This document shows positions 51,231 through 51,380 of a stretch of 64,000 nt of DNA, in pieces (position 1 is the stretch's first letter; every line of letters begins with the position of its first letter). The position numbers were made by a program, and so were the translations under genes. The notes below the pieces were generated by a model that ran no database searches, had not been told where the DNA came from, and saw only the letters and a program-made list of their open reading frames with translations. Source of the DNA: Streptomyces sp. CoH27 (GTDB lineage: Bacteria > Actinomycetota > Actinomycetes > Streptomycetales > Streptomycetaceae); assembly GCF_020181035.1 (NCBI RefSeq), contig NZ_JAIQYY010000018.1, positions 145,934-209,933 of the forward strand. Reading direction: 5' to 3'.

Positions 51231-51380
51231 CTCCCTACGCCGGCATTACCCGGTAACAGGTTCGGCGGTCGACGCAGCGGTTTCCGTCGGTCGGTGCTTC
51301 CCGTGAAACAGGCTTCGTTTCACGTGAAACATCGCGAATACGGAGGTCAGCGCCCTCTCAGCCCGGTGCTCCGAGCTCCC
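51231..51380 (-). promoter_or_regulatory. TPP riboswitch (THI element) of thiC
   Basis: On the minus strand the 5' half reads GGAGCACCGGGCTGAGAG and the 3' half GAACCTGTTACCGGGTAA, then TGCCGGCGTAGGGAG, the conserved thi-box. The 3' end of the aptamer includes the ribosome site of thiC (ATG 51222), so TPP binding would hide it and block translation. The two halves are separated by about 70 bases that form the variable P3 arm; this arm contains one perfect and one degenerate parS site. Confidence 0.93.
51317..51330. promoter_or_regulatory. parS site within the TPP riboswitch arm
   Basis: A perfect GTTTCACGTGAAAC. A second, 12/14 match (GCTTCCCGTGAAAC, 51296-51309) lies seven bases away. Both fall in the variable arm of the riboswitch. 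Confidence 0.9.

Follow-up and report, generated by a model that had tools for sequence, protein, structure and literature searches.

How does a predicted chromosome segregation site come to sit inside a metabolite-sensing RNA? The question is raised by the thiC leader of the window, by which we mean the whole 64,000-nucleotide stretch of Streptomyces sp. CoH27 DNA analyzed here. A first-pass annotation had reported a perfect parS and a second, 12/14 copy between the two halves of a thi box, and had proposed that both palindromes are tolerated in the P3 arm of a TPP riboswitch as hairpins in their own right. A motif scan confirmed the two copies, at 51317-51330 and 51296-51309, and our analysis suggests that in many Streptomyces a predicted ParB site is built into the hairpin arm of the thiC riboswitch, the same letters being kept both as DNA and as RNA.

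The thiC riboswitch and the parS set of the genome

The features of the locus are as follows.

49438-51222, minus strand: thiC, phosphomethylpyrimidine synthase, 594 aa (Pfam PF01964 ThiC_Rad_SAM, 625.7 bits, and PF13667)
51215-51392, minus strand: TPP riboswitch (THI element), whole match (RF00059, 39.8 bits, model positions 1-105 of 105)
51350-51354, minus strand: P3 helix, 5' strand, GGCGC (cmscan alignment; pairs kept in 70/70 aligned two-copy arms)
51271-51275, minus strand: P3 helix, 3' strand, GCGUC (cmscan alignment; pair counts in two-copy arms)
51283-51344, minus strand: P3 extension, made up of a lower helix and the parS-bearing hairpin (MFE fold, consensus fold of relatives, pair counts)
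51317-51330, minus strand: parS copy 1, perfect 14/14, GTTTCACGTGAAAC (motif scan)
51296-51309, minus strand: parS copy 2, 12/14, RNA partner of copy 1 (motif scan; complementarity and covariation)
51231-51236, minus strand: AGGGAG, likely Shine-Dalgarno at the 3' end of the aptamer (role read from the sequence)

The riboswitch lies upstream of a thiamine gene, thiC, which is identified by Pfam and starts at 51222. Its RF00059 match (E 1.4e-6 in a 331-base search) places a 74-nt insert between the two P3 strands, so that the riboswitch upstream of thiC is real and both parS copies do fall inside its P3 arm. The 51231-51380 stretch given in the first-pass annotation takes in the greater part of the aptamer. 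In this alignment, pairing in P1 is weak. The score falls below the Rfam gathering score of 54.3, a database threshold and not a biological feature, mainly because of the P3 insert, which helps to explain why such riboswitches miss the cut-off. All of the 14 orthologous leaders match RF00059. Longer arms score lower on the whole, with 61.3 and 57.5 bits reached at an arm length of 40 and 37.7 bits at 117; the exception is one leader with an arm of 38 and 50.5 bits (L122), and the gathering score is passed only by the two leaders with an arm length of 40. Across leaders, the thi-box core and the P3 helix are almost invariant and the length of the CTGAGA-to-ACCTG stretch ranges between 38 and 118 nt (one leader, in which CTGAGA occurs twice, reads 28), indicating that the arm is the place where the aptamer tolerates inserts. 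Compared with the RF00059 thiC riboswitches, the window therefore presents the same core, the same gene, and the same position just upstream of the start codon, but its P3 is extended by 74 nt that hold two parS copies. Length variation in the P3a stem of TPP aptamers has been recorded, for example in diatoms (PMC9544697, in the part available), and it is the same arm that is lengthened here; however, the extension in thiC leaders holds a parS that appears to be under a constraint of its own, and no site for a DNA-binding protein is reported in the available part of that paper.

AGGGAG forms the end of the thi box and lies 8 nt upstream of the thiC ATG, so TPP probably closes the ribosome site directly. 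Across the leaders, the first open start lies 9 to 12 nt past ..AGGGA in 224 of the 247 leaders in which a start was found, and this near-constant spacing, together with the sequence itself, suggests that TPP is probably sensed by Shine-Dalgarno occlusion. Divergent from thiC, a YibE/F-like protein is encoded on the plus strand at 51470-52945, with a markedly His-rich N terminus (HGHGHSHG repeats) that is possibly metal binding. The window also contains the Streptomyces sRNA Scr3920 (RF02828, 138.6 bits) on the minus strand at 57597-57722.

The window holds eight parS matches with up to three mismatches, against 0.97 expected, and none of 100 shuffles reached eight. The whole genome has 16 perfect sites, all on two contigs, and four one-mismatch sites, and the reversed-pattern control gave no match of the 12-base parS core. 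A ParB gene (TIGR00180, 204.6 bits, C18:200568-201107) shares its contig with seven perfect parS sites, and a second, weaker ParB match (83.3 bits) is found on C52. In a genome of the same species (G289), 16 perfect sites fall within about 297 kb, the thiC site among them. The parS of the thiC arm is thus a member of the chromosomal parS cluster, whose oriC-proximal placement is putative. In S. venezuelae, ChIP-seq places ParB at its parS sites (PMC4852455 and PMC12511625, in the parts available), and a mean of 22.8 parS per chromosome is given for 20 closed Streptomyces genomes (PMC8743542, in the part available). The site in the thiC arm is the same kind of palindrome and belongs to the same cluster near oriC as those described in PMC4852455 and PMC8743542, but here it lies within a structured cis-regulatory RNA, a circumstance that goes unmentioned in the available parts of these papers. 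Nor was any mention of thiC or of a riboswitch found in the available main text of the S. venezuelae ParB papers, apart from one word beginning with "thic" in PMC4852455 that may not refer to the gene, and no earlier account joining parS and a riboswitch was found in the literature searched, which lay mostly outside subscription journals. The S. coelicolor thiC presumably carries the tag SCO3928. SCO3928 has been used as an EMSA control fragment (PMC8120823, in the part available).

Distribution of parS among thiC leaders

The leaders were drawn from an even Streptomyces sample, the family (best 30 matches), the genus members with the closest ThiC, and named records, of which 24 of 80 loci were used (L154-L175, L187, and L202) and 56 left out. 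ThiC was found in 120 of the 121 genomes of the genus sample. Three TPP matches that were not taken as thiC leaders (L001-L003) and a further ThiC copy without a thi box (L125, from Streptomyces genome G024) were excluded. That genome has three ThiC matches, one of which aligns only from residue 48 and in which no thi box was found. The resulting 270 leaders, all with a riboswitch, were merged into 248 distinct ones; the scan took in the 233 arms with a length of 46 nt or more, and the 15 arms that were too short were counted as parS negative. Since the 248 leaders are biased towards ThiC near that of the window, prevalence was taken from the even genus sample only, that is, from 121 loci of 120 genomes, the window's own included.

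In this sample, an arm parS of 13/14 or better is present in 49 of 121 leaders, and the comparison of Streptomyces leaders that had been proposed as a check thus finds the arrangement conserved in a large part of the genus. The other 72 leaders have an arm without parS, so the switch does not need it. The distribution is all or none: the best 14-mer reaches 13-14/14 in 148 of the 233 scanned arms and at most 9/14 in the remaining 85, with none at 10 to 12, and only 2 of 9,320 shuffled arms reached at least 12/14. Together with the window shuffles and the reversed-pattern control, this rules out a chance resemblance to parS. The position is equally uniform: counted from the C of CTGAGA, the best site starts at a distance of 31 nt in 140 of 148 arms. 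Just five best-copy sequences occur, namely the palindrome and four single changes of it. Arms without parS resemble unrelated hairpins, as judged by eye. No perfect parS lies elsewhere within the stretch examined in 70 of the 72 parS-less genus leaders; the other two (L072 and L091) have one 531 to 542 nt upstream of CTGAGA.

None of the 20 loci examined from other genera of the family carries parS in the arm. A strict pattern of CTGAGA, a gap, and a perfect parS, which one-mismatch sites escape, matched 11 of 396 Actinomycetota genomes; two of these are Streptomyces (the genome of the window and G012), and the nine others have no TPP match at E 0.1 or better. Among these loci and genomes, the same arrangement beyond Streptomyces was rejected. 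On a FastTree thiC tree, restricted to the 176 of 248 rows with at least 900 nt of thiC, no fewer than three changes are needed to account for the presence of parS. Well-supported branches force two of these, with a main clade of 133 rows and, apart from it, a clade of four. The history may have been two gains or a single gain with losses.

Constraints on the arm as DNA and as RNA

Copy 1 stands at 13-14/14 in 147 of 148 parS-bearing arms (113/114 with two copies and 34/34 with one), and at least one copy does so in all 114 two-copy arms. Copy 2 ranges from 7 to 14/14, reaching 13-14/14 in 15 of these arms and less than 13/14 in 99. Only one two-copy arm has a decayed copy 1 (L246, 10/14); its copy 2 is at 13/14, and the role of ParB site seems to have moved to the other copy in this species. 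Parsimony changes were counted per column in 65 of the 70 two-copy arms of 117 nt, namely those whose thiC sequence runs to 900 nt or more. Copy 1 has ten unchanged positions out of 14, the others having changed one, two, eight, and nine times (mean, 1.4), compared with means of 3.9 in copy 2 and 7.6 in the linker. A6 of copy 1 is kept in 114/114 arms and C7 in 113/114, both at positions that are mostly unpaired in the long hairpin described below, and in copy 2 positions 6, 8, and 9 drift and position 7 is C in 114/114. The centre of copy 1 is not wholly fixed (G8A in 29/114 and T9G in 15/114), which, with the invariant C7 of copy 2, makes the contrast between the copies incomplete.

The variants accepted in copy 1 are found at other parS sites as well. 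Among the four one-mismatch sites of the genome, three are A11G (T4C on the other strand), none of them within the thiC arm, and the fourth is T9G, so that both A11G/T4C and T9G/A6C occur at non-thiC sites. The G8A variant, GTTTCACATGAAAC, occurs at one further site about 46 to 48 kb from thiC in 5 of 10 genomes, and nowhere else in the ten besides the thiC arm and that site; in four of four loci examined (L343-L346, near position 701), the further site lies within a conserved open reading frame of more than 300 codons. The ParB-type site likewise shares its letters in the coding sequence of these four relatives, but the function shared in the thiC arm would be an RNA fold with compensatory changes of its own. 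The predicted ParB site of the thiC arm is, by these counts, held against drift, and copy 2 appears to be retained mostly as the RNA partner of copy 1 and not as a ParB site. In its upkeep, copy 1 behaves as expected of the DNA site that the first-pass annotation proposed.

At the RNA level, copy 1 pairs with copy 2 in a single long hairpin. In the 70 aligned two-copy arms, 90.6% of its cells are paired and 50 cells changed on both sides, compared with 24.1 when shuffled and 3 to 8 when slid, and the covariation score was matched by none of 500 shuffles. A fold with two separate palindrome hairpins was rejected, having a single cell changed on both sides and a covariation below that of nearly all shuffles. 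The first-pass annotation was right that the arm folds; in two-copy arms, however, the palindromes pair with each other and not each alone. The shuffle controls ignore the relatedness of the sequences, and correlated evolution was therefore tested on the thiC tree. Copy 1 position 11 is predicted to pair with copy 2 position 4. In the 114 arms these two are found as A-U (44), G-C (43), G-U (22), A.C (3), and A.G (2), and they differ by a double change even within a species, being A-U in the window and G-C in G289. In the Pagel test, which took in 108 of the 114 two-copy arms, this pair gave a likelihood ratio of 26.5 and a p value of 2.5e-5, the strongest signal among nine copy 2 positions; the eight others gave uncorrected p values from 0.0085 to 0.87, two of them below 0.05 (0.0085 and 0.045). 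A stricter count, of independent pairs on supported branches, yielded too few for a verdict: they numbered eight, with 4.1 changing the same way and 0.1 the opposite way, and six when counted the other way round, with 4.5 and 0.1; the median p value was 0.125 in both counts.

Each of the 34 single-copy arms is predicted to fold as a lone hairpin whose flanks change in compensation. The three pairs next to parS are formed in 33 of them, by stems as diverse as GAT/ATC, GGT/ACC, GGC/GCC, GAC/GTC, and CCT/AGG, among others, compared with 13 of 39 other parS sites. The wobble-forming A11G occurs 18 times in these arms, many of the 18 being related, and its mirror T4C, equivalent as DNA but mismatch forming in the RNA, does not occur at all; in two-copy arms, T4C is found in copy 1 twice, both times opposite a G in copy 2. 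Thermodynamic folding by itself lent the aptamer fold no support. Left unconstrained, the thiC leader takes a different fold, at -75.6 kcal/mol; forcing P3, the hairpin proximal to P2, and a single P2 pair gives -65.2 kcal/mol. The leader is no more stable than its shuffles (z, -1.06; 30 of 200 equally stable). Riboswitch cores can prefer other folds without ligand. The hairpin between copy 1 and copy 2 is common to the free and the aptamer-forced folds.

Taken at the level of sequence, these comparisons establish the position of the arm, its conservation, its folding, and two kinds of constraint on it. We put the probability that one stretch is constrained in both ways, serving in the DNA as a putative ParB site and in the RNA as a P3 hairpin, at about 0.77. 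The P3 arm would be a long hairpin in which a putative origin-proximal parS is paired with a second, decaying copy. As DNA, at least one copy would be held at 13-14/14, like a ParB loading site of the putative oriC-proximal cluster; as RNA, the copies and their flanks would stay complementary, and the arm would fold outside the TPP-binding core. ParB would then bind the DNA of the very arm that folds in the RNA, and TPP binding would close the ribosome site by occluding the Shine-Dalgarno inside the thi box. The P3 arm is free in length and a palindrome folds there, which is how a parS can occupy a transcribed leader and leave the switch unbroken.

It is unlikely that the arm is a parS and nothing more, lying in origin-proximal intergenic DNA that is free of selection on an RNA fold, with the covariation left by shared ancestry or by hairpin-templated mutation. 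Paired changes between the copies could arise by such templating, parS sites are dense near oriC, a third of the parS sites elsewhere likewise have the three flanking pairs, the shuffles do not preserve relatedness, and the independent-pair counts are not significant. Against this reading, correlated evolution on the thiC tree peaks at the predicted partner, the separate-hairpin fold has no excess of covariation, and the flank stems of single-copy arms, which lie outside the 14-mer, change in step. The absence of T4C beside 18 cases of A11G points the same way, as does the hairpin-like look, by eye, of arms that have no parS. The converse, an arm hairpin that merely resembles parS and is no ParB site, is the least credible of the alternatives: the consensus fold and the pair counts agree with it, and in vivo ParB data for the arm were not found in the literature searched, but it sits poorly with the all-or-none spread of parS identity, with the good copy present in every two-copy arm, with the upkeep of the mostly unpaired A6 and C7 in copy 1 against the drift of copy 2 at positions 6, 8, and 9, and with the recurrence of the copy 1 variants elsewhere.

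A selected coupling of thiamine synthesis and segregation, each influencing the other, is improbable as well, whether ParB loaded at the site acts as a block or a brake on RNA polymerase in the thiC leader or transcription through the site clears ParB. The site lies inside the riboswitch and upstream of the start codon, hence in DNA predicted to be transcribed, and chromosomal ParB affects transcription in a limited number of species (PMC7022226, in the part available); yet arm parS was lost or never gained in 72 of the 121 genus leaders, and the anatomy of the locus does not demand coupling. Nothing seen demands that the ParB site and the riboswitch interact. With the dual constraint as the preferred reading, we infer that ParB would bind at the thiC arm and that its site and the TPP switch are nearly independent.

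Possible parS hairpins beyond thiC and the meaning of a proposed dual use

Long GC-rich palindromes with a parS at the tip are found at other loci too, at 35337-35350 in the window (8 contiguous flanking pairs), at L342:436-449 (11 flanking pairs), and at L361:1501-1514 (12 flanking pairs). The last two apparently lie between convergent open reading frames and are terminator-like. Judged by mechanical open reading frames, a site of the window's genome (C15:211413) and a site of G008 at a like distance from thiC appear to lie between convergent genes. Forty distinct perfect parS were compared, from five Streptomyces genomes and limited to sites on the loci examined; seven have at least six contiguous flanking pairs, the window site at 35337-35350 and C15:211413 being examples, where random re-pairing of the flanks would give 0.8, a control that ignores that some of the seven are probably one site in different species. 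Streptomyces parS may thus often stand at the tip of RNA hairpins, which we regard as a lead and not a result. Only tentatively, and with the odds against it, we suggest that parS recurrently settle in RNA hairpins, such as the thiC P3 arm and terminator-like hairpins, since both need a palindrome; such sites would be a dual code, DNA read by ParB and RNA that folds, with a second copy recycled as RNA partner.

In another family of the order, two genomes (G451, C1:10460424-10464428; G452, C15:9220-16356) have dense GTTTCACGGGAAAC / GTTTCCCGTGAAAC arrays; the 19 and 25 sites that come within a single mismatch of parS include no perfect one. The centromere motif of this lineage seems, from these arrays, to have shifted by one base.

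If the recurrent dual-code reading is true, the bases on which ParB loads would be those through which the leader is transcribed, and either process could affect the other. If the reading of the thiC arm is true, it would be a clear natural case of one stretch kept both as a segregation site in DNA and as an arm of a metabolite-sensing RNA, and this dual use would extend through much of a genus that matters to industry. Two questions become testable with it: how unrelated codes can be written in one set of letters, and whether a parS in a transcribed leader disturbs transcription, or vice versa.
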